Assembly (NCBI RefSeq): GCF_001514065.1
Contig: NZ_KQ948424.1
Span: 310,001 to 374,000, forward strand
DNA: 64,000 bases
Origin: Streptomyces antibioticus
GTDB lineage: Bacteria > Actinomycetota > Actinomycetes > Streptomycetales > Streptomycetaceae
Reading direction: 5' to 3'
Position numbers and translations under genes: made by a program
Shown here: in pieces, positions 20,154 through 38,597 of the stretch
How positions within the stretch are numbered: position 1 is the first letter of the stretch
Layout: every line of letters starts with the position of its first letter
Notes under the pieces: generated by a model
The model's input: the letters and a program-made list of their open reading frames with translations, nothing else
What the model was told of the DNA's origin: nothing
Databases searched by the model: none

Positions 20154-20168
20154 GGCCTGCTCCAGCTG

Positions 20169-21238: not shown

Positions 21239-21287
21239 TCCGGTCCCCCTCCAGCTACCCCCCGGCATGACCCCCAGGAGCGTCCCC

Positions 21288-22322: not shown

Positions 22323-22348
22323 CGTAACTGAGACGGGACTTCACCATC

Positions 22349-23395: not shown

Positions 23396-23486
23396 CACAC
23401 CCCTTTACCGTCAGCCGCCCCCTACCGGGACCGGACTTTCAAGGCCCATTGACCCGAGCCCGCGAACGTCCGCTTCCAGGGGAAAA

Positions 23487-23520
23487 CAAAGGCCCGCACC
23501 CACCCAGGCGCGGGCCTTTG
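23487..23520 (+). terminator. Terminator of the bldK operon
   Basis: CAAAGGCCCGC pairs perfectly with GCGGGCCTTTG over a 12-base loop, about 90 bases after the bldKE stop. The flanking A and T runs make it usable in both directions, so it may also serve the leftward DinB-like gene. Confidence 0.8.
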
Positions 23521-23547
23521 TGCTGCCCGGTTCAGGCCGCTGCGAAC

Positions 23548-24051: not shown

Positions 24052-24093
24052 CGGGAAGGATGATTCCCGGCCGGGATCCCGCTGTCGAATGCT

Positions 24094-24474
24094 TTACCGA
24101 GCCACCAGTTCGGCCTCGAACCCGTCCCCGTCCTCCAGGTACGCCGCATAGTGCTCCGCCCCGCCCGCGTACGGATGCCGGTCCGGGAAGAGCAGCGTCC
24201 AGCCATGCTTCGACGCCTCCGCCACCAGCGCGTCCAGCTCGCCGCGACTCTGCACATGGAACGCCAGGTGGTTCAGCCCGGGGCGCATGCGGTCGTGCCG
24301 GTCGCCCGTCAGCGCCGGGGACTGTTCCAGGACGACGTACGTCTCCCCCGTGCGCCAACTGCGGCCTGCCGCCCAGTTCTGGTACGGCTCCCAGCCCAGC
24401 CGCTCCAGCAGCCAGCCCCAGGACGTCACCGCCCGCTCCAGGTCCGGCACCCACAGCTCGACGTGGTGCAACAA
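24094..24474 (-). CDS. VOC/glyoxalase-fold protein
   Basis: A 126-residue vicinal-oxygen-chelate protein in two halves: LHHVELWVPDLERAVTSWG and LNHLAFHVQSRGELDALV, with the Glu ligand in FEAELV at the end. The start is uncertain: TTG codons at 24474 and 24471 follow a purine-rich GGGAGGGAGCGGGAG stretch, and no ATG or GTG fits. Such proteins are dioxygenases, isomerases or resistance proteins that bind compounds; no substrate can be named. It is divergent from the methyltransferase gene. Confidence 0.78.
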   Translation of the reverse strand: MLHHVELWVPDLERAVTSWGWLLERLGWEPYQNWAAGRSWRTGETYVVLEQSPALTGDRHDRMRPGLNHLAFHVQSRGELDALVAEASKHGWTLLFPDRHPYAGGAEHYAAYLEDGDGFEAELVAR

Positions 24475-24546
24475 CTCCCGCTCCCTCCCAGGTGATGGCG
24501 GCCTGATCCTGTCACGCCGTTCAGTACCGTGTGGGACACTGCCGCG

Positions 24547-25284
24547 ATGGTCGATCGCTCGTTCGCGGATCTCTCGCTCGCCGCGCTGTATGACTCCCTG
24601 CACCCGTGGGGCCCGGGCGACGACTTCTACGCGCGCCTCGTCCGGGACGCCGGCGCCGTCCTCGACGTCGGCTGCGGCACCGGGCGGCTGCTCGCCCGGG
24701 CGCGGGCCGCGGGGCATCGCGGGCGGCTCGTGGGGGTGGATCCGGCCGCCGCCATGCTCGTACAGGCGCGGCGGCGGGAGCCGGGCGTGGAGTGGGTGCT
24801 CGGGGATCTGCGGTCGCACTTCTGGCACGGGGAGTTCGACCTCGTCGTGATGACCGGGCACGCCTTTCAGACTCTCCTCACCGACGACGGCGTACGACAG
24901 GCCCTGCACGCCGTCCGGGGCGCGCTGCGCGCCGGGGGGCGATTCGTCTTCGACGCGCTGAATCCGGCCGCCCGGGCGTGGGAGGGCTGGGGTCCCGAGC
25001 AGATCCGCGAGGGCGCCGACGCCGAGGGGTCGGTCGCGTGGATGTGGCGGGCGGTCTCCTACCCCGTCGTCGGCGACCGGGTCACTTTCACCGAGACCTA
25101 CAAGGGCGTCCGCTGGGACCGCCCCCAGATCAGCACCACCACGCTCCGGCTCCTCGACCCGTACGGCATAGAGGGCCTCCTGGCCGAGGCCGGTCTGACG
25201 GTGCTGGAGCAGTACGGGGACTGGGGGCGGGGGCCGGTCACCGCCGCGAGCCCCGAGATCATCACCGTCGCCGGGCACCGCTGA
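24547..25284 (+). CDS. SAM-dependent class I methyltransferase
   Basis: A 245-residue methyltransferase. Motif I is VLDVGCGTGRLLARA (about residues 40-54), the acidic loop is GVDPAA and motif IV is FDLVVMTGHAFQ. The C-terminal region (GPVTAASPEIITVAG) matches a common Streptomyces family of unknown substrate. A GTG at 24529 would add six residues; neither start has a good ribosome site. It lies 106 bases before the compact SARP gene on the same strand. It may or may not belong to the peptide locus downstream. Confidence 0.85.
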   Translation: MVDRSFADLSLAALYDSLHPWGPGDDFYARLVRDAGAVLDVGCGTGRLLARARAAGHRGRLVGVDPAAAMLVQARRREPGVEWVLGDLRSHFWHGEFDLVVMTGHAFQTLLTDDGVRQALHAVRGALRAGGRFVFDALNPAARAWEGWGPEQIREGADAEGSVAWMWRAVSYPVVGDRVTFTETYKGVRWDRPQISTTTLRLLDPYGIEGLLAEAGLTVLEQYGDWGRGPVTAASPEIITVAGHR

Positions 25285-25313
25285 CGCCCCGCCACCGGGC
25301 CCCGGTCCAGCGG

Positions 25314-25332
25314 CCGTGCGGAATCCGTGCGG
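25314..25332 (+). promoter_or_regulatory. 11-bp-spaced direct repeat upstream of the SARP gene
   Basis: CCGTGCGG occurs at 25314-25321 and 25325-25332, an 11-base period, and a third CCG follows in phase at 25336. SARP proteins bind direct repeats with this period. The site is 58 bases upstream of the SARP start and could be autoregulatory. The repeat sequence differs from the one at 32297-32329. Confidence 0.35.
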
Positions 25333-25390
25333 GAGCCGAACAGCGGACCGGCACAGTGGTGGCCTCAGTGGTTCCGGATACGGGGGCACC

Positions 25391-26179
25391 ATGGACATAC
25401 AGCTGCTCGGATGCGTGGAGGCACGCGTCCGCACCGGCGAAAGGGTGCCGCTCGCGCACGGCACGAAGCTTCTGCTGGCCGCCCTGGCCTGGACCCCGGG
25501 CACCTTCGTGGCCGACGAGGTCCTGGCGGAGCGCGTGTGGTCGGAGCGGCTGCCCCAGCATCCGCGCGAGGCGCTGTACATCCAGGCCACGCGGCTGCGC
25601 AAGGCACTGGGTGGAGTCGGCCGCACCGACGAGGCCTTCGAACTGACCCGCAGGCGCGGCGGATACGTCCTCGCCGTCGACGAACAGAGCGTGGACACCG
25701 TGCGGTTCCGCACCCTGGTACGGCAGGCCCGGCTCAGCACCAGGGACGGGGACACCGAGCGCGCGCTCGGTCTGTTCGTCCGGGCGCTGGACCTGTGGAG
25801 CGGCGAACCGCTGTCCGATGTGCGCACTCCCTGGGCGGAGACGGCCCGGGTGGCGCTGCGGCGCGAGCACCGGGAGGCTTTGGTCGGCAGCGCCGAACTC
25901 GGTCTGCGGTCCGGGCGGGTCGAGGAGTGCCTGCGGCGGCTGAGCCGGCTGGCGGACATGCACCCCTTCGACGAGAAGGTCACCGGTCTGCTCATGCTCG
26001 CTCTCCATCAGGCCGGCCGGCAGGCGGACGCACTGGACTGCTTCGACCTGCTGCGCCTGCGGATGGCCGATCTGCTGGGATGCGAGCCGGGTCCCGAACT
26101 GCGTTCCCTGCGCGAGCGGATCCTGGCCCGGGACCCGGATCTCGTCCCGGCCGCCGCCCACTCGGCAACACCTAGCTGA
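25391..26179 (+). CDS. Compact SARP-type transcriptional activator
   Basis: A 262-residue protein with the two SARP domains only: an OmpR-like winged helix (residues 1-90, MDIQLLGCVEARV...RRRGGYVLAV) and the bacterial transcriptional activation (BTAD) domain (about 100-245, with SGEPLSDV and the repeat-like LRSGRVEECLRRLSRLADMH). SARPs bind tandem direct repeats next to the -10 element and switch on metabolite clusters. The ATG at 25391 gives the standard N-terminus; an in-frame extension to 25316 is not SARP-like. Its 3' end overlaps that of the convergent AfsR-like gene by 8 bases. A likely target is the promoter repeat at 32297-32329. Confidence 0.88.
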   Translation: MDIQLLGCVEARVRTGERVPLAHGTKLLLAALAWTPGTFVADEVLAERVWSERLPQHPREALYIQATRLRKALGGVGRTDEAFELTRRRGGYVLAVDEQSVDTVRFRTLVRQARLSTRDGDTERALGLFVRALDLWSGEPLSDVRTPWAETARVALRREHREALVGSAELGLRSGRVEECLRRLSRLADMHPFDEKVTGLLMLALHQAGRQADALDCFDLLRLRMADLLGCEPGPELRSLRERILARDPDLVPAAAHSATPS

Positions 26180-29100
26180 CACCCGTCTCCCCGTCGTCGC
26201 CGGCCTCGGTGAAGTGTTCGGTCAGGTACAGGTCGAGCCGGGACTCCGCGTCCAACGGCAGTTCCCGGTGCGAGGCGGCGGGTCGGGGTCGTACGCCCTC
26301 GGGAGGTGGTCCGTGCAGGGCCGTGCGGGCGTGTTGCGGGGTGCCGATCGCGTCGAACAGGGCGGCGGCCCGCGCCCGCGCCGCCGCGGCCGGCTCCACC
26401 TCGCCCTGGGCCTCGTGGGCGGCGGCCAGGACCAGCGCGGCTCGGGCGTGGATCAGGCGCTGGCCGGAGTCCCGGGCCAGCGCGACCGCCTCCTGGGCCA
26501 CGTCCAGCGCTCCGGTCGTATCGCCGTTCTCCAGCCGGATCACCGCGGTGGCCACCTGGACCCGGGGAAGCGTGAGCGGGCTGCCGTCGACGGCCAGGCC
26601 CGCGGCGCCGGCCAGGTGGTCCAGGGCCACGCCCGGGAGGCCGGCCGCGCGGGCGACGGCGGCGCGTTCCACCAGGATCTCGACATGGCCCGTACGATGC
26701 CCGGTCCGTTCGGCGATCTCGAACGCGGCGTCCAGGTGGCCGGCCGCCTCGTCCGCCCGGCCGGCCCGCAGCTTCAGTGCCGCCAGCCCCACCAGCGAGT
26801 CGACCTGGCAGTTGCGGTTCTCAGCCCGCAGCGAGATGGCGAGCGCGTCCTCGTAGGCCGCCAGCGCGCGCTCGTCCTGGCCCGCGTCCGCCCGTACCCG
26901 GCCCAGGGTCTCCAGGGCGACCGCCTCGGCGTAGGTGGACCCGGAGTCACGGCAGACGAGGAAGCAGGTGCGCAGCGCGGCCTCCGCCTCGGCGAACCGG
27001 GCCTGCTTCTGCCGGGTCAGGGCGAGGTTGACCAGGGCCAGCGCCCGGTGGTGGTCCGCGGCGGCGCCGATCAGGGCGAGCGCGGCGGTGGCCGCCTCCT
27101 CGGCCGCGTCGGTCCGGCCCAGGGCCAGGTTGAGCGAGGCCATGTTGATCAGCATGACCTGCTCGCTCCTGACCTCTCCCAGCGTGCGGTAGAGGGCGAG
27201 GGCGCGCCGGTAGCGGGGCAGGGCCCGCAGGGGTTCGCCGAGCAGTTTCAGGGTGACGGCCGCGCCCTGGAGCGCCACGGCCTCGCCGTGCGTCCAGTCG
27301 GCCCTGCGCGCCCGTTCCTCCGCCTGCTCGTACTCGGCCAGGGCACCGCGCAGGTCCCCGTTGCGCCAGCGGGCGTGGCCGACCGACACATGCATCGCGA
27401 CCTGGCCGCGCAGGTCTCCGTCGCGTTCGGCGGCCGTCCGGGCGAGCAGTGCCAGCCGCATCCAGTCGGCGAGCGGGCGCCGGTGGTGGAACAGGTCCTG
27501 CAAGGCGTCGACCAGCGCCCACGCGAACCGGGCGGGACCGTGCTCGGCGGCATGGCCGATGGCCGCCGCGATGTCGTCCCACTCGGCGTCGAACCAGTCG
27601 TACGCCTCCTCCGTGGTGCGGAACTCCCGCGGCAGCGAACCGTCGAGGGCGTCCGGGCGGTCCCGCATGACGTAGAGGCCCGCCGTCCTGGCCGCGTTGA
27701 CGACGCTCTGCACATAGTGGTCGAGGAGCCGCTCGACGGCCGCGGCGCGTTCGGGGGCCGTGTCCTCGGCGGCGGTGCGGTCGCGCGCGTACTCGTGGAC
27801 GAGGTCGTGCCAGGCGGTACGGCCGTGACCGGCGTCGTGCAGCAGGTGCACCCGCTGGGCCAGCCGCAGCAGGTCGGTCGCCGCGGCCTCGTCGGTGTGC
27901 GCGGCCGCGGCGGCCGCGCGGAGCGAGCGACCGGTGCCGGGGACCACGCCAAGGCGCCGGAAGGCGCGCCGGGCGGCGTCCGGGAGGGCGCCGTACGACA
28001 TGTCGAGTGCGGCGCGTACGGCGATGCTCTCCTCGCCCTCGACATGCAGCCGGGCGAGCCGGCCGCGGTCGGCGAGGTGGCGGACGTAGGTCCGGATGCT
28101 GCCGGGGCTGCCGCCGATCCATGAACCGGCCACGCACAGGGCCAGCGGCAGCCGGTCGCACAGCTCGACCAATTCGGCGGCGGCCGCCGGATCGGCGTCC
28201 ACGGCCTCGGTGCCGACCACGGAGCCGATCAGCTCCAGGGCGCCGGTGCGGTCCAGGACGTCGCACTGCACCCGGTACGCGCCGTCGAGGGTGACCAGTC
28301 CGCTGAGCTTGTCGCGGCTGGTCACCAGGGTCAGGGACCCGGAGGACGCGGGCCGCAGCAGCCGTACGGTCGCGGGGTCCGCCGCGTCGTCCAGGACGAC
28401 GAGGACCCGGCGGTCCGCCAGCAGGGTCCGGTACAGGGCGGTCTGCGCCTCGGTGCCGAGCGGGATGTCACGCGGGCCGCAGCCAAGGCCCTGCAACAGC
28501 AGGGGCAGCGCTTCCCCGGGGCCCATGGGTTCGGCGTCGTCGAAGCCGCGCAGGTCCAGGAAGAGCTGCCCGTCGGGGAACCGGTCGGCGACCCGGTGGG
28601 CCCAGTGCAGGGCCAGGGCGCTCTTGCCGACGCCGGCCGGGCCGACGAGCAGAGCGAGCGGTTCGGCGGTGCGCAGAGCGGAGTCCAGTCCGCGCAGTTC
28701 GGCGTCGCGGCCGACGAATCGGCGGGGCGCGGGCGGGAGTTGGCGGGGCACCCGGCGGTCGGGTCGGGCCGGGGAGGCGGGCGCGGGGAGGGTGGCGGTC
28801 GGGCGGCGCACGGGCGGCACGGTGGGCGCGGAGCCACCGGCGAGCAGCTGCCGGTGCAGGGTGCGCAGGTCGTCCGAGGGCTCCAGGGCGAGCTCGTCGA
28901 CCATGCGGCGGCGCAGCTCGGCGTACACCTGGAGCGCCTCGGCGGGCCGCCCGTCCGCCTGGAGCGCACGCATCAGCAGGGCGTGCGGGCGTTCGCGCAG
29001 GGGGTGGGCGGTGGTGAGGCGGAGGAGTTCGGCGACGGCCTGCCGGTGACGGCCGGTCTCCAGGTCCGCCTCGGCCGCGCTCTCCCGGGCCACGAGGTGC

Positions 29101-29579
29101 AGTTCGCCGAGCCGTCGCCGTTCCGCCTCGCTGCCGGCCGTCTCCGGCAGGTCGGACAACGGCTCGCCCCGCCACAGGCCGAGCGCCTGCTCGGCGTGGT
29201 GGCGCACGGTGTCCCAGTCACCGTCGGCCGCGGCGCGCGAGCCTTCCTCGACTAGCTGCTCGAAGGTGAGCAGGTCGAGTTCGCCGGGGCGGGCGTGCAT
29301 GACGTAGCCGGGCCGACGCGTGGTCAGCAGGCTGGGGCCGAGCGGGCCGAGGACCCGGCGGACCTCGGCGACCAGGGCGCGCACCCGCGCGGCGCCCGCT
29401 CCGGGCGGGCGGCTGTCCCAGAGTAGGTCGATCAGGCGGTCGACGGAGACGACGTGGTTGGCGTGGAGCAGAAGCGCGGTGCACAGCGCGCGTTGCCGTC
29501 CGGTGAGCGCGGCGGGCTGCCCTTCGATCTCGACTTCCAGCGGGCCGAGTACGCGAAGGCAAAGCCGGGGGGTGTGCAT
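26172..29579 (-). CDS. AfsR-like SARP-STAND-TPR regulator
   Basis: An 1135-residue regulator in three parts. Residues 1-250 are the winged helix plus BTAD domain (LRVLGPLEVEIEG; LWRGEPLSDLPE). About 280-600 is a STAND/NB-ARC ATPase with Walker A GPAGVGKSA (about residue 310), Walker B RVLVVLDDAAD and GLPLAL-like DRLPLALCVAG. About 680-1080 is a run of TPR repeats (ALAEYEQAEERARRADW; ALPRYRRALALYRTLGEVR). In this class ligand binding to the repeats is thought to gate ATPase-driven DNA binding. The ATG at 29579 gives a normal SARP start. It lies 130 bases behind the membrane protease gene on the same strand. A sensor role for the local peptide is an inference. Confidence 0.88.
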   Translation of the reverse strand: MHTPRLCLRVLGPLEVEIEGQPAALTGRQRALCTALLLHANHVVSVDRLIDLLWDSRPPGAGAARVRALVAEVRRVLGPLGPSLLTTRRPGYVMHARPGELDLLTFEQLVEEGSRAAADGDWDTVRHHAEQALGLWRGEPLSDLPETAGSEAERRRLGELHLVARESAAEADLETGRHRQAVAELLRLTTAHPLRERPHALLMRALQADGRPAEALQVYAELRRRMVDELALEPSDDLRTLHRQLLAGGSAPTVPPVRRPTATLPAPASPARPDRRVPRQLPPAPRRFVGRDAELRGLDSALRTAEPLALLVGPAGVGKSALALHWAHRVADRFPDGQLFLDLRGFDDAEPMGPGEALPLLLQGLGCGPRDIPLGTEAQTALYRTLLADRRVLVVLDDAADPATVRLLRPASSGSLTLVTSRDKLSGLVTLDGAYRVQCDVLDRTGALELIGSVVGTEAVDADPAAAAELVELCDRLPLALCVAGSWIGGSPGSIRTYVRHLADRGRLARLHVEGEESIAVRAALDMSYGALPDAARRAFRRLGVVPGTGRSLRAAAAAAHTDEAAATDLLRLAQRVHLLHDAGHGRTAWHDLVHEYARDRTAAEDTAPERAAAVERLLDHYVQSVVNAARTAGLYVMRDRPDALDGSLPREFRTTEEAYDWFDAEWDDIAAAIGHAAEHGPARFAWALVDALQDLFHHRRPLADWMRLALLARTAAERDGDLRGQVAMHVSVGHARWRNGDLRGALAEYEQAEERARRADWTHGEAVALQGAAVTLKLLGEPLRALPRYRRALALYRTLGEVRSEQVMLINMASLNLALGRTDAAEEAATAALALIGAAADHHRALALVNLALTRQKQARFAEAEAALRTCFLVCRDSGSTYAEAVALETLGRVRADAGQDERALAAYEDALAISLRAENRNCQVDSLVGLAALKLRAGRADEAAGHLDAAFEIAERTGHRTGHVEILVERAAVARAAGLPGVALDHLAGAAGLAVDGSPLTLPRVQVATAVIRLENGDTTGALDVAQEAVALARDSGQRLIHARAALVLAAAHEAQGEVEPAAAARARAAALFDAIGTPQHARTALHGPPPEGVRPRPAASHRELPLDAESRLDLYLTEHFTEAGDDGETGVS

Positions 29580-29601
29580 TCACAGAACGTAATCCAGGGC
29601 T

Positions 29602-29650
29602 GTCGGGCAAGCAACGCCCGCCCGACTCACAGGAATTGGACAGCAATTCC
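29602..29650. promoter_or_regulatory. Two inverted repeats upstream of the AfsR-like gene
   Basis: GTCGGGC-N11-GCCCGAC (29602-29626) and GGAATTG-GACAG-CAATTCC (29632-29650) are perfect 7-base inverted repeats 23-71 bases before the ATG of the leftward regulator. They look like operators or an early-transcript structure. The regulator therefore may have its own promoter in addition to read-through from the peptide operon. Confidence 0.4.
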
Positions 29651-29673
29651 CTTCCCTTCTGTCCCCTGTCCCC

Positions 29674-29703
29674 TCCCCTCTCTTCCGCTCCCCTCTCTTC
29701 CGC
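29674..29703. repeat. 15-base tandem duplication in a purine/pyrimidine tract
   Basis: TCCCCTCTCTTCCGC occurs twice in direct succession, just after the membrane protease stop codon, within a longer pyrimidine-rich tract (29650-29705; purine-rich in the leftward transcript). It may be an early 5' leader element of the regulator or simply slippage. Confidence 0.5.
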
Positions 29704-29709
29704 TCCGCC

Positions 29710-30936
29710 TCAGCCCGTACGGCGTCCCGCCCACGTCCATGCGTTGCGCAGCACCCCGCGGACCCGCGGCCCGTGCCGGCGCCACCACAGCCGGGCCCAC
29801 AGCAGCTGGAGCCCCGTCAGAAGCAGCACCGTGACGAGGGCGTCGAGCCGCAGCAGCGGGTCGGTGTCGGTCAGCAGCCGGTGGCCGGAGCGGGCCAGGA
29901 GCGGCCAGGTGACGTCGAGCAGCAGTCGCAGCCCGACGAAGACACAGACGACCGAGCCCGCCACCGCGCCCGCCGCGTACGCCTTCAGCATCCGCCGCTC
30001 ACCGGGTCGCCGCCCGGCCAGCGGGTCGCGGCTCACCCGGCCCAGGAGCCTGGCCCCGAGGTGGCGCAGCCAGGCACCGGCGTCGCCGTAGAGGTTGCGG
30101 CACCCGGTCAGGTCCTGGGCGACGAAGTACAGGTCGGTGCGCATGAAGACCAGGCACTGGTTGGCGAAGGAGGTGACCAGGGTCATCGCGACGACCGGCA
30201 GCAGGGGCGAGTCGGCGCCGGCCGCGAGGGCGAGCAGACAGCCGCCCCAGACCGCGGCGTCCACGGCGAGCCCGGACAGATACACGGTGAGCCGCGCACG
30301 GCGGCCCTTGAGCCAGATCCCGGACACCTCGGTCTGCGCCACGAGGAATTGCAGGCGGGTGCCCAGCCGGACCCGCCCGGCCACTCCGGCGGCCCGCGCG
30401 GTCACCAGGTGCGCCAGTTCGTGCAGGCCGATCAGACACCAGGCGGCGAGCGACTGCACGAGGAGGTTGACGGTGCCGAGGCGCGCCCACACCAGGTCGT
30501 CCCAGGTGGGCAGGGAGCGCCCGCGCAGCACGACGGCCACGAGTCCGGCCACGGGCACGGCGAGGACGGCGGCGTGCAGAACGGGAGAGAGCACCCAGCG
30601 GACGTGGCGTTGCCGCAGCCCGGGGAGGGAGACGGGGACCGGCTCGGTCTCGAAGCGCCGGGTGCCGATCGCGGCGACCAGACCGGCGGCGGCCAGCGAC
30701 TCGGCGAACGCCTCGACATCGAGGTCACGGCCGGTGTCCTGGCGCAGCGTGCCGCGGGTCTGGCCCACGGTGCGGCCCTCGGCGAGCAGCCGGAGCGCGG
30801 CGATGCCGATCTCGGGCAGGGCGATGACCTGGTCGTTGCCCTGCCGTCCGACGATCCACTCGTCCCGGTCCTGCCGCATCTCCAGCGGGTACAGGACGAC
30901 CGTGGGGTCCGGCTCCGGCGGCGCGGCGGCTGTCAC
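29710..30936 (-). CDS. Membrane metalloprotease (M50-like) with N-terminal PqqD-like domain
   Basis: A 408-residue protein. Residues 10-95 (VLYPLEMRQDRDEWIVGRQG, then IGIAALRLLAEGRTVGQ and AAAGLVAAIG) have the PqqD/winged-helix shape used as a RiPP recognition element. Six hydrophobic segments follow. The zinc motif HELAH is at residues 172-176 inside a membrane segment, and a later Asp in RTDLYFVAQDLTGCRNL fits the third ligand region of M50 proteases. The GTG start overlaps the ThiF-like stop by 4 bases (GTGA), so both are co-translated. Probable job: cleaving the small peptide, or its leader, in or at the membrane. It could instead be a non-cleaving binding or transport factor. Confidence 0.75.
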   Translation of the reverse strand: MTAAAPPEPDPTVVLYPLEMRQDRDEWIVGRQGNDQVIALPEIGIAALRLLAEGRTVGQTRGTLRQDTGRDLDVEAFAESLAAAGLVAAIGTRRFETEPVPVSLPGLRQRHVRWVLSPVLHAAVLAVPVAGLVAVVLRGRSLPTWDDLVWARLGTVNLLVQSLAAWCLIGLHELAHLVTARAAGVAGRVRLGTRLQFLVAQTEVSGIWLKGRRARLTVYLSGLAVDAAVWGGCLLALAAGADSPLLPVVAMTLVTSFANQCLVFMRTDLYFVAQDLTGCRNLYGDAGAWLRHLGARLLGRVSRDPLAGRRPGERRMLKAYAAGAVAGSVVCVFVGLRLLLDVTWPLLARSGHRLLTDTDPLLRLDALVTVLLLTGLQLLWARLWWRRHGPRVRGVLRNAWTWAGRRTG

Positions 30937-32006
30937 GTCCCGCACAACGGGCACTCGGGCCGGGCCGGGTGCCGTACGAAGACATGCTGGTCGGGCGCGA
31001 TCAGGTTCACCCCGCGCACATAGCCGGGCGGGGTGGCGCCGATGCCGGTGAGCAGGGCGATGACCTCGTGGGCGATGAGCTGTCCGGAGATCCCGGCGGC
31101 CGGGGCCAGCGCACCGGCGGTGCCCAGGTGCGGGGTCCACCCGGGTTTGAGCTTGGCCTCCTCGCCGGCGCCGACGCACTCGAAGCAGGGGCCTTGGGGC
31201 GCGTACACCCCGACCGTGGCCAGGGGGCCGCTGTAGCCCGCGGACACCCAGGGCACGCCCAGGGTCGCGCAGACCCGGTTCGTCATCTTCCGGATGAGGT
31301 CGCCGCGGGGCTCGTCCGCGCACAGCACGAAGACGTCCCGGTCGCGCGCGAGTTCGGTGAGCGCGGCCTCGGTGTCGGCGCGACGGCTCTCGTGGGTGTA
31401 GCGGCCGGCCGAGTTCACGGCGGCGAGGCGGCGGGCCGCCGTCTCCGCCTTGGGGCGGCCGAGGTCGGCCTCGGTGTAGAGGACCTGCCGGCTGAGGTTG
31501 GACTCCTCGACCACGTCGGGGTCCACCAGGTGCAGGTTGCCCACGCCCACGGCGGCCAGCGCCCATGCGGCGTGGCTGCCCGAGCCGCCGACGCCCAGCA
31601 CGGTCACGCGGGCCTGCTTGAGGCGCAGTTGGGAGGACCAGGCATCGCTGCCGGGGCGCAGGTCGACGTACCGGAAGTAGGTGTGGTTCCTGCTGTAACG
31701 CTCGCGCTCACGGTCGGTGAGGCCGTCCGGAGGAGGGGCGGCGGCGTCCTCGACATAGCCGGTGTCCAGCAGTTCGGCGAGCAGCCGGCGGGCGCCTTCG
31801 GGGCCCAGCGCCGGATGGCTGTCCGCGAGGGTGCGCTCGATCCGGTCCGGTGGTGTGGCGCCGTCGAGCAGGGTGAGCGCGTCCCAGACCCAGCCGTGCG
31901 GATCGGCGATCTCCGCCGCGACTCCGTAGACCCCGCCGCCGAGCCGGAGGGTTCCGTCGTCGAAGCGATGCGGGGTGTGCTCCGCCTTGATCCGTGGCAG
32001 CTGCAC
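30933..32006 (-). CDS. ThiF/MccB-like adenylating enzyme with N-terminal recognition domain
   Basis: A 357-residue E1-like enzyme. Residues 1-90 form a small PqqD-like/winged-helix domain, as in MccB peptide clamps. The Rossmann core has the nucleotide motif GVGGSGSH (138-145), VDPDVVEESNLSRQ with the conserved Asp and Asn/Arg, and zinc cysteines CFEC (274-277) and CPLC (352-355). Such enzymes adenylate a carboxyl group, for example the peptide C-terminus in microcin C7 or Glu side chains in pantocin. GTG start with AAGGAG 7 bases upstream. It follows the 46-codon gene by 62 bases and is coupled to the protease gene, so the small peptide is the obvious substrate. Confidence 0.85.
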   Translation of the reverse strand: MQLPRIKAEHTPHRFDDGTLRLGGGVYGVAAEIADPHGWVWDALTLLDGATPPDRIERTLADSHPALGPEGARRLLAELLDTGYVEDAAAPPPDGLTDRERERYSRNHTYFRYVDLRPGSDAWSSQLRLKQARVTVLGVGGSGSHAAWALAAVGVGNLHLVDPDVVEESNLSRQVLYTEADLGRPKAETAARRLAAVNSAGRYTHESRRADTEAALTELARDRDVFVLCADEPRGDLIRKMTNRVCATLGVPWVSAGYSGPLATVGVYAPQGPCFECVGAGEEAKLKPGWTPHLGTAGALAPAAGISGQLIAHEVIALLTGIGATPPGYVRGVNLIAPDQHVFVRHPARPECPLCGT

Positions 32007-32026
32007 GATCGTCTCCTTCGAAGAAC

Positions 32027-32060
32027 GACCCCGGCGGCGGTGCGAGCCGCCGCCGGGGTC
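32027..32060 (-). promoter_or_regulatory. Intercistronic hairpin after the small peptide gene
   Basis: GACCCCGGCGGCGG pairs perfectly with its complement over a TGCGAG loop (14-bp stem), between the small peptide stop and the ThiF-like gene's ribosome site. No U run follows, so it is more likely a partial terminator or mRNA-stabilising element that raises peptide output relative to the enzymes. Confidence 0.75.
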
Positions 32061-32068
32061 TGCCGTTG

Positions 32069-32209
32069 TCAGGTGTCGATCTGCTTGTTCTGGATCGTCT
32101 CGATCTTGTCCAGCAGCCGGACCTCGATGAACTCGGGCTGCTGCGGCGCCTCGGAGTTGCCGAGCGTGCCCTGGTCGCCGAAGGTCTCGGCGTGCGTGGT
32201 GTGCTCCAC
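32069..32209 (-). CDS. 46-residue putative RiPP precursor peptide
   Basis: A short gene with GTG start and a GGGAG ribosome site 7 bases upstream. The peptide begins MEHTTHAETFGDQGTLG and ends EVRLLDKIETIQNKQIDT. The first half is Thr/Gly-rich, the second charged and helical-looking. It has no Cys, and its only Ser is residue 19, so thioether or thiazole classes based on Cys are excluded. No signal peptide is present. It heads the operon with a ThiF-like enzyme and a PqqD-M50 protease, both carrying peptide-binding domains, and it has SARP-type repeats upstream and a hairpin downstream. It is best read as the substrate of those enzymes. I do not recognise the family. Confidence 0.75.
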   Translation of the reverse strand: MEHTTHAETFGDQGTLGNSEAPQQPEFIEVRLLDKIETIQNKQIDT

Positions 32210-32281
32210 GGTGCTCTCCCTTTCCGATGGATCGGATGCGACGGGCTGCCGTCGGTGACGGCCGTCCCGCTGCTGCCTCCC

Positions 32282-32287
32282 AGCCTC
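32282..32287 (-). promoter_or_regulatory. Candidate -10 element of the peptide operon
   Basis: On the leftward strand GAGGCT (one mismatch to the Streptomyces TAGRNT-like -10) lies 9 bases after the last 11-bp repeat. That spacing is close to the 8 bases seen in SARP-dependent promoters. It predicts a leader of about 65 bases. Confidence 0.4.
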
Positions 32288-32296
32288 GGACAGGGG

Positions 32297-32329
32297 TCTT
32301 TCCGCGGTCTTTCACCGGCCTTTCACCGG
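32297..32329 (-). promoter_or_regulatory. Three tandem 11-bp repeats, probable SARP operator
   Basis: Read leftward, three units follow each other without gap: CCGGTGAAAGG, CCGGTGAAAGA and CCGCGGAAAGA. The 11-base period places each unit on the same face of DNA, as in operators of ActII-ORF4, DnrI and other SARPs. The array starts at the base next to the stop codon of the importer ATPase gene and ends 87 bases before the small peptide start. Two SARP-type regulators are encoded in the same locus. Confidence 0.7.
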
Positions 32330-33457
32330 CTAGTCGTCGTTCAGCCCCTCCTCCAGCGCCGCCAACGCGGGATCCAGCACGATGTCCTCGTCCCGCGCCT
32401 CGATCGTCGGGTCCTCCGGGAAGTGGCAGGCCGTCAGATGGCCGTCGTGGTTGCCGGAGATCCGCACGAGCGGCGGCTCCTCCGTGGCGCACTTGTCCTG
32501 CGCCTTCCAGCACCGCGTCCGGAACCGGCAGCCCGACGGCGGCGAGATCGGCGACGGCACGTCACCGGCCAGCCTGATCCGCTCCCGCCCGCCGGTCTCC
32601 GTCTCCTCCGCGAGGTTCACCTCGGGCACCGCGGACAGCAGGGCGTGGGTGTAGGGGTGACGGGGGCGGGTGTAGATGGACTCGCGGTCGCCGACCTCGA
32701 TCACCTTGCCGAGGTACATGACCGCGACGCGCTGCGAGAAGTGCCGTACCACCGCCAGGTCGTGGGCGATGAACAGGAACGCGATGCCCAGCTCGTCCTG
32801 GACCTTCCGGAGCAGGTTCACGACCTGCGCCTGGATCGACACGTCGAGCGCCGACACCGGCTCGTCCGCCACGATCAGCTTCGGTTCCAGCGCCAACGCG
32901 CGGGCGACGCCGATACGTTGACGCTGGCCGCCGGAGAACTCGTGCGGGAAGCGGTTGTAGTGCTCGGGGTTGAGGCCGACGATCTCCAACAGCTCGCGGA
33001 CGCGCGCCTCCCGGCCGCCCGTCGGCTCGATCCCGTTGATCTCCATCGGACCCGAGATGATCTTGCCGACCGTCTGCCGCGGGTTCAGCGACGAGTACGG
33101 GTCCTGGAAGATCATCTGGATCTCGGAGCGGATCGGCGCCAGGTCCTTGCGGCTGGCATGGGTGATGTCCTTGCCGCGGTACGAGATCTTCCCCGCCGTC
33201 GGCTCCAGCAGCCGGGTGATCAGGCGGCCGGTCGTCGACTTGCCGCAGCCGGACTCGCCGACCAGGCCGAAGCTCTCACCGACGTGGACCGTCAGGTCGA
33301 TGCCGTCGACGGCCTGCACCGCGCCGACCGTACGCCGGATCGGGAAGCCGCCCTTGACCGGGAAGTGCTTGGTGAGCCCCTCGACGACCAGCAGCGGGTC
33401 GCCGGACGAGTCGGCGGTTGCTTCGCGCGGGGCCGGGAGGACGAGGTCCTCTTTCAT
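32330..33457 (-). CDS. Oligopeptide ABC transporter ATPase, OppF type (BldKE paralogue)
   Basis: A 375-residue ATPase with Walker [10 protein letters not shown], signature [14 protein letters not shown], Walker [13 protein letters not shown] and OppF C-terminus [22 protein letters not shown] lies 8 bases before the ATG. It is longer than BldKE by an N-terminal extension and an acidic C-terminal tail (about 25 residues, ending EEGLNDD). Last gene of the second bldK-type operon; the SARP repeats of the peptide operon begin directly after its stop. Confidence 0.92.
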   Translation of the reverse strand: MKEDLVLPAPREATADSSGDPLLVVEGLTKHFPVKGGFPIRRTVGAVQAVDGIDLTVHVGESFGLVGESGCGKSTTGRLITRLLEPTAGKISYRGKDITHASRKDLAPIRSEIQMIFQDPYSSLNPRQTVGKIISGPMEINGIEPTGGREARVRELLEIVGLNPEHYNRFPHEFSGGQRQRIGVARALALEPKLIVADEPVSALDVSIQAQVVNLLRKVQDELGIAFLFIAHDLAVVRHFSQRVAVMYLGKVIEVGDRESIYTRPRHPYTHALLSAVPEVNLAEETETGGRERIRLAGDVPSPISPPSGCRFRTRCWKAQDKCATEEPPLVRISGNHDGHLTACHFPEDPTIEARDEDIVLDPALAALEEGLNDD

Positions 33458-33505
33458 TGACGTGTCCTCCTAGGACTGGGGCGACGACTGGCCCGGGCAG
33501 GGCCA

Positions 33506-34567
33506 CTAGCCCAGGCTGGGCTTGATCTCTTCGATGAAGATGGTCCGCTTCTGGTCCGCCGTGAGATGGCAGGCGGAGGCGCGGTCCGGGGCCAGCAACG
33601 GGCGTTCGTCGGTGCAGCGGGTGCCGCCGACCCGGTCCTGGAAGGTGCAGCGCGGGTGGAAGCGGCAGCCGGACGGGGGGTTGAGCAGCGAGGGCGGGGC
33701 GCCCGGGATGGGGGCCAGCGGGGCGGCGAGGTCCGAGTCGAGGCGCGGCATCGAGTTCAACAGGCCCCACGTGTAGGGGTGTTGAGGGGCGCGCAGCACC
33801 TCGTTCGTCGTGCCCCGCTCGATCGCGCCGCCGGCGTACATCACCATGATGTCGTCGGCCATGTCGGCGATGACGCCGAGGTCGTGGGTGATGAAGATGA
33901 TCGCGGAGCCGAACTCCTGCTGGAGGTCCTTCAGGAGGTCGAGGATCTGGGCCTGGACCGTCACGTCGAGCGCGGTGGTCGGCTCGTCGGCGATCAGCAG
34001 GTCCGGGTCGCAGACCAGCGCCATGGCGATCATCGCGCGCTGGCGCATACCGCCGGAGAACTGGTGGGGGTAGTCCTTCGCGCGTTCCTTGGGGTTGGGG
34101 ATGCCGACCTTGCCCAGCATCTCCACCGCACGGTCCCAGGCGGCCTTCTTGGAGGCGCCGGTGTGCTTCATGAACGGCTCGGCGATCTGCCGGCCCACCG
34201 TGTAGTACGGCGACAGCGCGGTGAGCGGGTCCTGGAAGATCATGGCGACCTTGTTGCCGCGCAGCTTCTCCAGCTCGGACTCGCGAGCCGTGGTCAACTC
34301 CTGGCCTTCCAGGAGGATCTCGCCCTCGACGGTGGTGAACTTCGGGTTGTGCAGCCCGAGGATCGTCAGGTTGGTCACGGACTTGCCGGAGCCGGACTCG
34401 CCGACGATGCCGAGGGTCCTGCCGCGCTCCAGGTCGAAGGAGAGTCCGTCGACGGCGCGGACCATGCCGTCCTCGGTGCGGAAGCTGACGTGCAGGTCGC
34501 GCACCGAGAGGAAGGCGCCCGCGTCGGACGGGACGGGCGCCCCGGTCTCCTTGGTCAGAGTGGTCAC
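33506..34567 (-). CDS. Oligopeptide ABC transporter ATPase, OppD type (BldKD paralogue)
   Basis: A 353-residue ATPase: Walker [10 protein letters not shown], signature [14 protein letters not shown], Walker [14 protein letters not shown]-terminus [18 protein letters not shown] start with AGGAG 8 bases upstream. It closely resembles BldKD (shared LEKLRGNK, and LVCDPELL here as LVCDPDLL). It drives uptake with the OppF-type partner. Confidence 0.92.
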
Positions 34568-34577
34568 GACAGAGCTC

Positions 34578-35558
34578 CTAGGACAGCCGCACGCGCGGGT
34601 CGATGAAGGCGTAGCAGGCGTCGACGACGATGTTGCACAGCAGGATCACGGCGGCCGAGAACAGCATCACGCCGAGCAGCAGCGGCAGATCGCTGAACTG
34701 CACCGACTCCACCGCGAGGCGTCCGAGGCCGGGCAGTCCGAAGGTGTACTCGGTGATGATCGCGCCGCCGAGCAGCGAGCTGAGGTCGATGCCGAGGATG
34801 GTGATGATGGGGATCAGCGAACCACGCCAGGCGTAGCGGAAGAAGACGTAGCGGCCGCTCATGCCCTTGGCGCGGGCGGTGCGGACGTGTTCCTCCTGGA
34901 GCTGCTCGATCATCGAGGAGCGTGCCATACGGGTGTACTGCGCGGCGAAGATCGTGGAGAGCACGGCCCACGGGATGATCAGCCCGGTGAACCAGGCGGC
35001 CGGGTTGTCGGTGATCGGCGTGTAGTCCGGCTCTTCGAAGATGTGGGTCTGGTAGACGAGGATCGCCAGCGCCAGCGGGCCCAGGAAGTAGATCTGCATC
35101 GAGCTGAGCACCATGGACCCGGCGGTGAAGGACTTGTCCACGAAGGAGCCGCGCTTCCAGGCGGCGAGCAGTCCGGTGCCGAGTCCGACGAACAGGAAGG
35201 CGACGGTGGCGCCGGCAGCGAGCGAGAGGGTGAGCGGCAGCCGGTCCATCAGGGTCGACCAGACCTGCTCGTTGGTGTGGTACGAGTACCCGAAGCACGG
35301 GGCGGGGCAGGGACCCTGCTCGAAGTCGTTGCGTCCGGTGACCAGCCCGGACAGGAAGATCCAGAACTGTTCCGGGATCGACTTGTCGAGCCCGAGCGTG
35401 TGGTGGATGTTCGCCAGCGCGTCGGGCGTGCAGGTCTTGCCGCACATCAGCAGCGCCGGGTCGCGGGGCATGCCGAAGAAGAGCAGGAAGGCGACCACGG
35501 TCAGCAGGACCAGGATCACGAATGAGCCGAGGATCCGGCGGAGGAGGAAGCGCAGCAT
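34578..35558 (-). CDS. Oligopeptide permease, OppB type (BldKC paralogue)
   Basis: A 326-residue permease of exactly the BldKC length, with the same Cys pairs in the long extracytoplasmic loop (CGKTC; CPAPC), the coupling motif RAKGMSGRYVFFRYAWRG and end DPRVRLS. An 85-base gap with a strong hairpin separates it from the binding-protein gene upstream. Confidence 0.92.
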   Translation of the reverse strand: MLRFLLRRILGSFVILVLLTVVAFLLFFGMPRDPALLMCGKTCTPDALANIHHTLGLDKSIPEQFWIFLSGLVTGRNDFEQGPCPAPCFGYSYHTNEQVWSTLMDRLPLTLSLAAGATVAFLFVGLGTGLLAAWKRGSFVDKSFTAGSMVLSSMQIYFLGPLALAILVYQTHIFEEPDYTPITDNPAAWFTGLIIPWAVLSTIFAAQYTRMARSSMIEQLQEEHVRTARAKGMSGRYVFFRYAWRGSLIPIITILGIDLSSLLGGAIITEYTFGLPGLGRLAVESVQFSDLPLLLGVMLFSAAVILLCNIVVDACYAFIDPRVRLS

Positions 35559-35595
35559 CTCAGTGGCAGCTTTCGGGCGAAGCCTGGGCGGACGC

Positions 35596-35625
35596 GGTGC
35601 GCCCCGTCACGGGACGGGGCGCACC
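35596..35625 (-). promoter_or_regulatory. Intra-operon hairpin after the BldKB-like gene
   Basis: GGTGCGCCCCGTC pairs perfectly with GACGGGGCGCACC over a 4-base loop. It lies about 20 bases after the binding-protein stop, matching the size and place of the hairpin after bldKB although the sequence differs. Confidence 0.7.
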
Positions 35626-35643
35626 TGACGCCGCTTGGACGGG

Positions 35644-37455
35644 TTACTTCACGAAGAGCCTGCGCGGGTCGACGCCACCGATGACGTCGTCGTACGCGAG
35701 GCCACCGATCTTGGACCCGGCGATCTGGGTCTGCTTGTAGTACGCCGTCGGGATGTTGGAGACGACGTCCTTCACGATGTACTCGTTGATCTTGTTCCAG
35801 GCCTCGGCGGCCTTGATCGGGTCGGTGATGGTGTTCGCCTTGTCGATGTCGGCGTTCACCTTCGGGTCGTTGATGTGCGAGTAGTTCGAGGAGCCGTCCT
35901 GGATCTGGCGGCCGTCGTACAGCGGCGGGATGACGGTCGAGGCGCTCGGCCAGTCGGCACCCCACGCGGTGTGGAAGATGTCGTAGTTGTTCTTGACCTT
36001 GCTGACCTGGTCGTAGTAGGTCTCGGCCGGGATCTCCTGGCGCTGCACGTCGAAGCCGGCCTTCTCCAGGCCCGCCGCCATGGCGGTGGAGTACTGCTGG
36101 CCCTCGGGAGTGTTGATGTAGCCGAAGGTGAGCTTCAGGCCGGTCTTGCCGGCCTTCTTCAGCAGTTCCTTGGCCTTGGCCGGGTCACCGGCGGGCTTGG
36201 CCTTCTTGCCGAACGGGTCGAACTTGGGGTCGTAGCCCGAGACGGTCGGGCTGATCAGACCGCCGGCGACCTCCATCGCGTCGGTGCCACCGAAGGCGCG
36301 GACGAACGGCGTGATCGGCAGGGCGTAGGCGATGGCCTCGCGGACCGTCTTGTCCTGCATCTCCGGCTGGGACAGGTTGATGTTCATCTGGCCCACGTAC
36401 GGCTGGTAGCCGGAGACCGTGCGGTTCTTCAGCGCGGCGTCGGCGAGGACCTTGGTCAGGTTGCCCGCGTCGACCTGGTTGCTGAAGCTGATCGCCGTCG
36501 CGTTGGCGCCGCTGTCGTCGAGGATGGCCTTGGTCGAGTCCTCGAACTGCTTGTTGAACTCGATGTTGAACTGGTCGACGTACTGGTGCCGGACCGCGTC
36601 GGTCTTCGGGTCCCAGTTGGTGTTCTTGACCAGCGTCATCGTCTTGCCGGACTTGAACTCCGAGATCTTGTAGGGACCGGAGGTCATCGGCGACTTGTCG
36701 TACTTGACCTTGGTGTCCTTCGCGGCGGACACGACGGAGTAGCCCGCCATGGCGAGCGCGTACGGCAGGTCGGGCTTGGCCGACTTGAACTTGAAGAGGA
36801 TGGTCTTGTCATCCGGCGTCTCCAGGACACTGTCCGGGAGGTGCTTGCCCTTGTAGGGGCCGTCCGGGAGGAGCTTGCGGTACTCGGTGCCCGGGGTGTT
36901 GGCGAGCCACTGCTGGATGTACGTCGGGCCGTTGGAGATGAACGGCGCGAAGAGCCGCTCGAAGGTCTGCCGGACGTCCTTGGCGGTGATCGGGGAGCCG
37001 TCGGCCCACTTGATCCCGTCCTTCAGCGTGTACTTCCAGGTCTTGCCGCCGTCGGTGGTGGTACCGCTGTCGGTGGCCAGGTCGCCGACGACCTCGTGCT
37101 TCTTGCCGTCGTCGCTGGTCGCCTTGTACGCGGTCAGACCGCGGTGGATCAGCTGCGAGAGCGCCATCTCGTCGGAGACGTAGATCTGCCCCGGGTCGAG
37201 GTGCGCGAAGCTGTCGCGCTGGAGCACCGTGATGGTGCCGCCGGGCTTGGCGCCGGGGAGTTCGGCGGCCGGACCCGTGGAGTCCTTGGCGTCGCCGAAG
37301 GAGATGCCGGCCTGCTGACGCTGCGCGTTCTCCTTGTCCTGCTTGTCGTTGTCGCTGCCCTTGCTGCCGCCGCTGCTGCAGCCGGTGAGCACGAGAGCCC
37401 CCGCCGCCAGCAGTGAGAGCGCGGCGTACGCGTGGCGTCCACCCTTACCCATCAC
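35644..37455 (-). CDS. Oligopeptide-binding lipoprotein (BldKB paralogue)
   Basis: A 603-residue SBP family 5 protein with an ordinary Sec lipoprotein signal (ALSLLAAGALVLTGC), unlike the twin-arginine signal of BldKB. The family signature region reads KWADGSPITAKDVRQTFERLF. It shares long motifs with BldKB (GGTITVLQRDSFAHLDPGQI versus GGTIYTLDQIDWDHLDPAQL), yet many binding-domain positions differ, so it probably prefers another peptide. A GTG at 37455 and an ATG at 37452 are both possible starts. Confidence 0.92.
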   Translation of the reverse strand: MMGKGGRHAYAALSLLAAGALVLTGCSSGGSKGSDNDKQDKENAQRQQAGISFGDAKDSTGPAAELPGAKPGGTITVLQRDSFAHLDPGQIYVSDEMALSQLIHRGLTAYKATSDDGKKHEVVGDLATDSGTTTDGGKTWKYTLKDGIKWADGSPITAKDVRQTFERLFAPFISNGPTYIQQWLANTPGTEYRKLLPDGPYKGKHLPDSVLETPDDKTILFKFKSAKPDLPYALAMAGYSVVSAAKDTKVKYDKSPMTSGPYKISEFKSGKTMTLVKNTNWDPKTDAVRHQYVDQFNIEFNKQFEDSTKAILDDSGANATAISFSNQVDAGNLTKVLADAALKNRTVSGYQPYVGQMNINLSQPEMQDKTVREAIAYALPITPFVRAFGGTDAMEVAGGLISPTVSGYDPKFDPFGKKAKPAGDPAKAKELLKKAGKTGLKLTFGYINTPEGQQYSTAMAAGLEKAGFDVQRQEIPAETYYDQVSKVKNNYDIFHTAWGADWPSASTVIPPLYDGRQIQDGSSNYSHINDPKVNADIDKANTITDPIKAAEAWNKINEYIVKDVVSNIPTAYYKQTQIAGSKIGGLAYDDVIGGVDPRRLFVK

Positions 37456-37559
37456 TCAGATTCCACCCATCTTGTGTCACCGTTGCGAATTGAAGTGCGA
37501 ACCGGGCCCGGTGGAGGCCATCCGGTCTGTGTCGGGCAAAGACGCCCACAACTGGTCGG

Positions 37560-38597
37560 TCAGCGCGCCGTCTTGGGATCGAAGGCGTCCCTGACCGAGT
37601 CCCCGAGCAGGTTGAACGCCACGATGAAGATGATCATCGAGATGCCCGGGAAGAACATGTAGGTGATGTCGTTCTGCATCACGAGTTCGGTCGACGCCTT
37701 GGAGAACATCTGCCCCCAGTCCGGCGTCGGTTCGACGATCCCGACCCCGAGGAAGCTCAGACCGGCCTCCGCGGTCACGAAGTTGGGCAGCATGTACGTC
37801 GACTGCACCAGGATCGGGGTGACCACGTTGGGCAGGATCTCCCTGCGGATGATCCGTACCGGGGACGCCCCGCTGACCTTGGCGGCCTCGATGAACTCCC
37901 GTTCTCGCAGGGCGAGTGTGGTGCCGCGCAGGATGCGGGCGAGGCTCATCCAGCCCAGGACCCACTGCACCGCGATGAGGGCGACGACCCGGACGTACAC
38001 CGGGGTCTCGTCGCGCGGGCTGACGAACAGCGAGACCACGACCGGCATGCTCGCGATGAAGAACAGCTGGGACGGGAAGGCGAGGAGGAAGTCGATGACC
38101 CGGCTGATCAACTGGTCGGGCTTGCCGCCGAGATAGCCGGCCGCGACCCCCAGGACGATGCCCGTCAGCACGGTCGCGACGGTGACGGCGAGCGAGATCA
38201 TCAGGGAGTTGCGGATGCCGTAGAGCAGCTTGGTGAAGACGTCGTAGCCGTTGCCGGGCTCCAGGCCGAACCAGAACTCGCCGCTGATACCGCCGTTGGG
38301 CTGGAGGGGCACACCCGCGCTGTCGAAGAGCTCGGGGCGTTCGTCGGCGAACACCGTGTACGGGTCCTTGCCGTAGAGCTTCGCGATCAGGGGGGCCGCG
38401 AGGCCGACCACGAAGAAGAAGATCACGACGTAGGCCGAGATCACTCCGGTGCGGTCGCGCTTGAAGCGGATCCACATCAACTGCCCGGGAGAGCGGCCTT
38501 CGAGCTGCTTGGCCTCCTCGGGCTTGCTCTTCGGCTGCTGGTCGCCGTCGACGACGACCGAGGTCCCGCCGCCTTCGATGTCGATAGGACTGGTCAC
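37560..38597 (-). CDS. Oligopeptide permease, OppC type (BldKA paralogue)
   Basis: A 345-residue permease with the N-terminal tail ending SPGQLMWIRFKRDRTG, nearly the same as in BldKA, six helices, coupling motif KVSGASPVRIIRREILPN and end GDSVRDAFDPKTAR. GTG start. First gene of the second bldK-type operon; the 668-base gap upstream must contain its promoter. Confidence 0.92.
   Translation of the reverse strand: MTSPIDIEGGGTSVVVDGDQQPKSKPEEAKQLEGRSPGQLMWIRFKRDRTGVISAYVVIFFFVVGLAAPLIAKLYGKDPYTVFADERPELFDSAGVPLQPNGGISGEFWFGLEPGNGYDVFTKLLYGIRNSLMISLAVTVATVLTGIVLGVAAGYLGGKPDQLISRVIDFLLAFPSQLFFIASMPVVVSLFVSPRDETPVYVRVVALIAVQWVLGWMSLARILRGTTLALREREFIEAAKVSGASPVRIIRREILPNVVTPILVQSTYMLPNFVTAEAGLSFLGVGIVEPTPDWGQMFSKASTELVMQNDITYMFFPGISMIIFIVAFNLLGDSVRDAFDPKTAR

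Follow-up and report, generated by a model that had tools for sequence, protein, structure and literature searches.

A candidate RiPP cassette in Streptomyces antibioticus pairing a ThiF-like adenylyltransferase with an M50 membrane protease, both carrying RRE-like domains

The window analysed here is a 64,000-nt stretch of the Streptomyces antibioticus genome (assembly GCF_001514065.1, contig NZ_KQ948424.1, positions 310,001–374,000 of the forward strand), and all coordinates refer to it. At 29710–32209 on the minus strand it contains three leftward genes encoding, in this order, a 46-codon peptide, a ThiF-like adenylyltransferase and an M50 membrane metalloprotease, which confirms the arrangement described in an earlier sequence-only reading of this DNA. 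Both enzymes feature an N-terminal domain resembling the recognition element (RRE) of ribosomally synthesized and post-translationally modified peptide (RiPP) systems, and the peptide together with the RRE-ThiF and RRE-M50 proteins very probably constitutes a RiPP pathway. Their co-occurrence suggests that the three parts form one maturation pathway. This would represent an apparently unreported ThiF-type RiPP branch with an RRE-bearing membrane protease, defined from sequence alone, whose precursors are short enough for annotation to pass over and which is found in a genus famous for antibiotics. As the core is composed of only three genes, its chemistry is open to in vitro work.

The precursor peptide gene (32069..32209, minus strand) begins with a GTG start codon preceded by the ribosome-binding-site-like sequence GGAAAGGGAGAG and encodes VEHTTHAETFGDQGTLGNSEAPQQPEFIEVRLLDKIETIQNKQIDT. 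The product is divided into a conserved leader-type segment, IEVRLLDKIET, and a variable tail, IQNKQIDT. No NCBIfam or Pfam model matches the window peptide, and six of its relatives, three of them from ThiF loci, likewise match no NCBIfam model.

A total of 73 fetched loci were examined, the window included, and in 49 of these M50 follows ThiF on the same strand. A tiny open reading frame (ORF) of 18–47 codons, by assigned starts, lies beside the ThiF-M50 pair in 48 of the 49; a regular expression recovers 45 and inspection adds L081, L078 and L170, while the remaining locus (L066) is cut by a contig end and its sequence begins inside ThiF. These 48 loci, with the RREs of their enzymes, display the encoded precursor beside a leader-binding enzyme that marks a RiPP system. 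The strict motif [ILV]x[IVL][RK]x[LIVA][DE]xx[EQ]T followed by a variable tail is present in ORFs of 42 loci and missing from L066, L081, L170 and the four loci of group III described below. Conservation of the small ORF beside homologous pairs, on which the sequence-only reading had staked its proposal, is therefore borne out. The same reading placed the peptide upstream of the pair, which holds in clade I; the peptide can also lie between ThiF and M50, after M50 or divergent from both.

The loci fall into several gene orders. Clade I, to which the window belongs, is composed of 10 loci with the order peptide-ThiF-M50-SARP, the last being a Streptomyces antibiotic regulatory protein (SARP) gene. 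The 22 loci of clade II encode one to three opposite-strand peptides, such as MPTKIVIRPLDKKETTGDSGGNGGS, divergent from ThiF-M50, and an M14 carboxypeptidase-like gene, assigned by a Pfam run on one clade II protein, lies beside all of them except L079. A set from one other genus (g250; L159–L166, eight loci in five genomes) features the order ThiF-peptide-M50, and in L159 and L160 another peptide gene follows M50. Group III (L087, L089, L093 and L171) encodes a diverged ThiF and peptides of 18–19 residues, such as MEIKVRKVEDVKATGLQV, and has a SARP gene in the fetched flanks of all four loci. In L056, L057 and L008, genes for ABC-exporter-like, signal-peptidase-like and thioredoxin-like proteins are located ahead of the peptide (Pfam on L056 only), and L059 carries ABC-exporter-like and signal-peptidase-like genes on the far side. 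In alignment A1, the row for L004 departs from the frame of the others near its end.

A search with the window M50 protein identified six Streptomyces loci, and the peptide is upstream of ThiF in all six. With an M50 profile, matches were obtained in 44 of 295 Streptomyces genomes and 17 of 374 genomes across the class at E ≤ 1e-10, and in 14 of 396 genomes across the phylum at E ≤ 1e-5, ten of these 14 only at 7e-8 to 8e-6; the genus, class and phylum samples overlap. Four records of a plasmid collection contain a related ThiF. One of them (L200) is the same as locus L061, and the other three (L201–L203), which are outside the 49, also have M50 and a peptide. Relatives of the peptide and of both enzymes occur together in dozens of actinobacterial genomes, which suggests a family of peptide products that is still uncharacterised and may act as chemical signals.

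Several lines of evidence distinguish this peptide family from chance ORFs. A six-frame scan of the 1.72 Mb of fetched loci with the strict motif gave 124 matches, every listed one of which belongs to this peptide family, with overlapping loci partly counted twice or more. A DNA pattern for the peptide was found at 32 places in 30 of 392 Streptomyces genomes, with none for the reversed control, and 26 of the 32 places adjoin ThiF-M50. Of the other six, three (L137, weakly at 80 bits, L139 and L140) have just the M14-like gene. The L134 peptide stands alone, in a genome with a complete locus at another place; an M50 fragment is present in L138, and L136, without a peptide ORF, resembles a chance match. 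The peptides of L134, L137, L139 and L140 are of the clade II type, and decoy, immunity or decayed loci are possible readings of these four places. Within a 12-codon block of the peptide, 12–22% of bases differ versus 43–67% in the ungapped flanks, with a flank-to-block divergence ratio of 3.7–5.6 in clades I and II and 2.2–2.9 in g250. Of the block differences, those at third codon positions number 129 of 188 (clade I), 1289 of 2050 (clade II) and 171 of 352 (g250), these counts being pairwise and not independent events. The g250 block has 109 synonymous and 105 non-synonymous codon changes, nearly equal numbers.

The next gene of the cassette encodes the RRE-ThiF-like adenylyltransferase (30933..32006, minus strand, 357 aa), which begins with a GTG start codon after the ribosome-binding-site-like sequence AAGGAG. 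An RRE occupies about residues 1–90 and a ThiF domain (PF00899, E = 1e-43) residues 125–353, while residues 4–256 align to PaaA with the leader-binding part included. The zinc-binding Cys residues 274, 277, 352 and 355 are present and the thioester Cys is missing. In an alignment of 49 ThiF sequences, in which L135 repeats L008 and from which L066 was left out as too short, G140, G141, D164, N170, R173, Q174, K186, D231, C274 and C277 are found in every row, and C352 and C355 in 48, with one gap. Less fixed are position 162 (Asp in 40, Glu in nine), P233 (44), R106 (42) and Y104 (42). None of the 49 sequences has a Cys within residues 284–300, the stretch where E. coli ThiF has its thioester Cys. 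That residue is Cys184 (PMC12710340). As the ATP residues are kept and the thioester Cys is missing, the chemistry is predicted to be that of MccB and PaaA, with adenylation followed by nucleophile capture without a thioester. In the PDB, the AlphaFold model is matched best by MccB chains, along its full length (E 2.8e-14), followed by PaaA and ThiF. With its RRE joined to PF00899 and its ATP/Mg and zinc residues intact, this protein belongs among the ThiF-like adenylyltransferases of RiPP systems.

The M50 start overlaps the ThiF stop by four bases. The RRE-M50 membrane metalloprotease (29710..30936, minus strand, 408 aa) has an HELAH motif at residues 172–176, with codons at 30409–30423, and an RRE at about residues 12–90. 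Alone, the window protein matches PF02163 at E = 0.06 and PqqD (PF05402) at E = 0.064, both short of the curated cut-offs. At E ≤ 0.01, Peptidase_M50 (PF02163) matches 20 of 49 family members, the window copy not among them, and PqqD matches two of 49, so much of the M50 family lies outside present models. Alignment A4 holds 49 rows, composed of the window protein and 48 of 67 reference sequences with ThiF-free loci included, and H172, E173, H176 and D268 are invariant in it. The protein thus displays the site-2 protease arrangement of HExxH and a distal Asp in membrane helices, the helices being predicted at low confidence. When the A4 profile was compared with 177,635 PDB sequences, the best three matches were the lasso RREs of TbiB1 and TfuB1 (profile positions 21–86) and the site-2 protease RseP (157–184), each weak alone (E 0.06–0.13); a six-row M50 profile gave no match in the PDB. 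The N-terminal 95 residues have the predicted order bbb-aaa-b. Aligned with hhalign, the trimmed N-terminal domains of M50 and ThiF matched over 78 columns (probability 52%, P = 1.4e-4; reversed control 0.15), and comparison of the untrimmed full-length profiles gave nothing useful. The proposal that both N-termini adopt PqqD/RRE folds is upheld for ThiF by the PaaA alignment and the MccB fold, and more weakly for M50 by the A4 profile, the order of secondary structure and the trimmed alignment.

The best explanation, which we consider probable, is a RiPP cassette: ThiF would adenylate a carboxylate on the bound peptide, and M50 would set the product free. Beta-strand docking of the leader is the established mode of PqqD-like domains, and both RREs would bind the precursor's I-x-[IV]-R-x-L-[DE] stretch as such a strand. 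The activated carboxylate would most likely be the C-terminal one. A side chain at a fixed position of the tail may then close a ring of 5–8 residues, this residue being Lys in the window type, mostly Ser elsewhere, and Cys or Tyr in single cases, and M50 would cut near the conserved E-T, removing the leader and releasing the product at the membrane. The strict set has 27 distinct tails; counted from the conserved Glu/Gln, their +5 residue is Ser in 18, Lys in seven, Cys in one and Tyr in one. The stretch from +5 to the C-terminus is five residues long in all 10 clade I precursors and 6–8 residues long in the rest.

A number of observations weigh against this explanation. Both predicted structures are poor, with a mean pLDDT (the model's own per-residue confidence) of 45.8 for ThiF, modelled with seven sequences, and 62.1 for M50, and the M50 model has no significant match in the PDB. 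Position +5 is Arg in L081, L168 and L203 and His in L170, L201 and L202 have Pro at +5 and Cys at +6, and the four group III loci are without such a residue; because of these exceptions, cyclisation of the tail is held as a tentative proposal, a little more likely to fail than to hold. The precursor ends in Asn in eight of the 49 loci (L079, L159–L164 and L166), as in microcin C. A peptide with the M14-like gene and without ThiF or M50 in the fetched flanks is present in L137, L139 and L140, and the peptide of L134 stands by itself. The window SARPs have no match at E ≤ 1e-8 in the flanks fetched for clade II and g250, and the oligopeptide importers that flank the window cassette are its ancestral neighbours and not parts of it.

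The C-terminal Asn bears on a somewhat unlikely alternative, in which the product is an antimicrobial or Trojan-horse peptide following microcin C logic, with peptide importers as the point of entry and the clade II M14-like enzyme as immunity. It agrees with the Asn endings at the eight loci, with the closeness of ThiF to MccB and PaaA, both of which are antibiotic enzymes, and with the M14-like gene adjoining 21 of 22 divergent-peptide loci. However, clade I precursors are without a C-terminal Asn, the window cassette has no further tailoring or immunity gene, and clade I features two dedicated regulators.

A different site of activation is unlikely. ThiF would here activate the side chain of the conserved Glu, or of the Asp at −3, and form a Glu-to-Ser/Lys/Cys ring in the manner of GrcB and not at the C-terminus. 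Glu is present in 26 of the 27 distinct strict-set tails, the listed ThiF-linked precursors have an acidic residue at −3, and GrcB joins Glu35 to Cys39 (PMC12250964). In L078, however, Gln replaces Glu while the ThiF and M50 frames are open, and Glu activation was demoted from first choice because of it. Group III has Lys at the Glu site, RRE binding explains conservation of the segment equally well, and ThiF-free loci keep a similar leader.

It is improbable that the peptide serves as a reusable scaffold, as in pearlins, from which M50 frees a small molecule consisting of just the modified terminal residue. The M50 proteases TglG and TmoG act in this way in pearlins (PMC10885120, PMC9303977) and the peptides here are very short, yet the five-gene window cassette has no amino-acid-adding enzyme and tails vary between species at several residues, not at the end alone. 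A reading of the small ORF as a product of chance or as a regulatory leader, with ThiF and M50 acting on another protein, can be dismissed almost entirely: the ORF is short, and three annotated plasmid records list no gene over it in their incomplete tables, but it is conserved at the protein level across several gene orders and on either strand, the 1.72 Mb scan gave zero off-family motif matches, and its differences are distributed over codon positions as given above.

The preferred RiPP cassette is larger in the window than the three genes first described, which stand as stated, and also includes two SARP regulators. The large SARP (26172..29579, minus strand, 1135 aa) is AfsR-like, with BTAD, NB-ARC and TPR domains, and the small SARP (25316..26179, plus strand) is convergent with it. 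The whole cassette, on both strands, is placed at 25285..32329 and is composed of small SARP, large SARP, M50, ThiF and peptide. These limits are inferred from two empty sites, L195 (G406) and L196 (G398), where the two flanking importer operons face each other and the cassette and peptide motif are missing. In L055 and L056, the cassette sits between the same two operons as in the window. In L197 (G402) and L198 (G408), other genes occupy the gap, in L198 including a SARP-like gene (263 bits), so these are not clean empty sites; the gap may be an insertion hot spot.

A relative of the large SARP directly follows M50 in nine of the 10 clade I loci, and in L058 a SARP-like fragment is present at the contig end. 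The five complete relatives (L008, L009, L055, L056 and L059) score 739–1853 bits versus 346 for the best paralogue in the window's own genome, and relatives cut by contig ends score 523, 919 and 1843 bits. Five other clade I loci have partners of the small SARP, scoring 238–388 bits versus 119 for the best own paralogue. For the window type, the product could act as a signal read by the SARP/NB-ARC/TPR regulator and perhaps be re-imported by the neighbouring oligopeptide importer. A signal role is suggested by the cassette regulators and by a parallel with Rgg/SHP systems taken up below; we regard it as possible and more doubtful than the ring itself. It cannot be general, as neither window SARP has a match at E ≤ 1e-8 in the clade II and g250 flanks that were fetched. 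The more specific idea, that in Streptomyces and its relatives precursors down to 18 residues in length yield autoinducer-like ring peptides by RRE-guided ThiF and M50, and that a Lys-to-C-terminus ring of the window type is a pheromone read by the NB-ARC/TPR SARP, is rather unlikely. If true, it would provide a genetically defined peptide-signal cassette in Streptomyces, where an oligopeptide signal imported by BldK has been described (PMC11303876). If the products are signals tied to SARPs, they would give direct access to the control of antibiotic clusters that are silent, and Streptomyces peptide signalling would gain a concrete candidate.

A 14 bp hairpin (32027..32060, minus strand) separates the peptide stop from the ThiF start, with a folding z-score of −3.40 and one of 200 shuffles equally stable. 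Long-stem hairpins of differing sequence (−35 to −48 kcal/mol) are found in this gap in seven of the 10 clade I loci (the window, L004, L005, L008, L055, L056 and L057), while L009, L058 and L059 have weaker folding and no long hairpin. Intergenic hairpins are a common means of yielding more precursor than enzyme, and this one probably raises peptide over enzyme, either as an attenuator or by stabilising the mRNA. Rfam gave no match anywhere in the window at gathering thresholds.

On either side of the cassette are oligopeptide ABC importer operons. Opp1 (32330..38597) is on the minus strand, and Opp2 (18393..25284) is on the plus strand with a methyltransferase gene (24529–25284) at its end. 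Both importers were rejected as parts of the cassette, being present without it in L195 and L196. The methyltransferase was also ruled out since it is present at the empty sites; its closest NCBIfam model is daptide_MTase, at 64 bits far short of the cut-off of 175. The subunit orders of Opp1 and Opp2 resemble those listed for BldK and Sco5117-5121 (PMC3924187); the window operons converge, and orthology is not claimed. Other Opp-type genes near L009 and L059 are treated as suggestive only. Four family-5 peptide-binding proteins are encoded within 29 kb (15163–16827; 18393–20153, assigned by NCBIfam only; 35644–37455; and 41424–43727), adjoining typA (39266–41347). Among 17 window proteins analysed with Pfam, five have no family, and one of these (37477–38676) is probably in the wrong frame.

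A separate branch of RRE-M50 loci lacks ThiF (L082–L086, L088, L091, L092, L094, L096, L101, L102, L172, L174 and L175). Peptides of 25–40 residues with the form MKKIxVRKxGxVKLTSSA... are located upstream of M50, a large TPR protein adjoins M50, and a flavin reductase is present at several loci. L084 and L085 encode a flavoprotein in addition, beside peptides with a C-terminal Cys. This branch is possibly another undescribed RiPP type. Two further M50 loci, L095 and L169, have no match to ThiF or the TPR protein and encode the peptides MKKLVVRKLEPIKTSANADCVPAAA and MKKLIVRRLESVKTSAATSCSVVVA.

Compared with known systems, the window cassette does not fit the microcin C, pantocin, GRC or pearlin type by the features considered here. 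PaaA processes the EEN core of pantocin A, and the window peptide has no EEN; it also has no Cys, which sets it apart from the GRC type with its Glu-Cys thiolactone. Pearlins depend on a cluster-encoded enzyme adding an amino acid to the scaffold, and the cassette encodes only the peptide, ThiF, M50 and two SARPs. Microcin C derives from a short precursor with a C-terminal Asn, MRTGNAN, which is nucleotidylated by MccB (PMC7136475), whereas the 46-codon window peptide has a C-terminal Thr, and the last residue of the 10 precursors of clade I is Thr, Ser or Arg. The likeness to MccB and PaaA lies in the RRE fused to an E1/ThiF domain, with PaaA aligning over residues 4–256 and MccB as the best fold match; the differences are the RRE-M50 partner, the SARPs and the lack of an MccA-like heptapeptide.

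Among ThiF enzymes, MccB and IndF activate C-terminal carboxylates while GrcB acts at Glu (PMC12150305, PMC12250964). The IndF/IndA and GrcB systems of streptococci likewise combine a small precursor with an RRE-ThiF, and IndF has a metalloprotease partner; this partner, IndP, is however an M16 and not an M50 protease (PMC12150305), the precursors differ, and the present family is from Actinomycetota and linked to SARPs. The claim that no described RiPP class is known to contain exactly these parts agrees with our searches as regards the combination and needs qualifying for ThiF-type RiPPs with other proteases, which are known (PMC12150305, PMC12250964). In the portions of the literature covered by our search, neither RRE-ThiF with M50 and such peptides, nor an RRE on the protease, these precursors or the SARP link was found; the words M50 and Streptomyces are in neither main text of PMC12150305 and PMC12250964, and the family may be among the further ThiF network clusters mentioned in PMC12150305. 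M50 proteases are known from pearlins (TglG/TmoG) and epipeptides (EpeP) (PMC10885120, PMC9303977). These too are membrane proteases acting on a RiPP precursor, but their partner enzymes are missing from the window cassette, and here the protease bears an RRE-like domain.

The cassette also resembles Rgg/SHP signalling, in which Rgg carries TPR-like repeats and Eep is an M50 protease. It differs in the RRE-guided ThiF step and the SARP/NB-ARC regulator, and here the importer is merely a neighbour and sensing only proposed. In S. thermophilus, 11 of 21 rgg regions have ThiF or radical-SAM genes next to them (PMC12445099). Shared with Rgg/SHP are a tiny peptide, a membrane metalloprotease (Eep), an Opp importer and an intracellular regulator (PMC13361665, PMC12445099).

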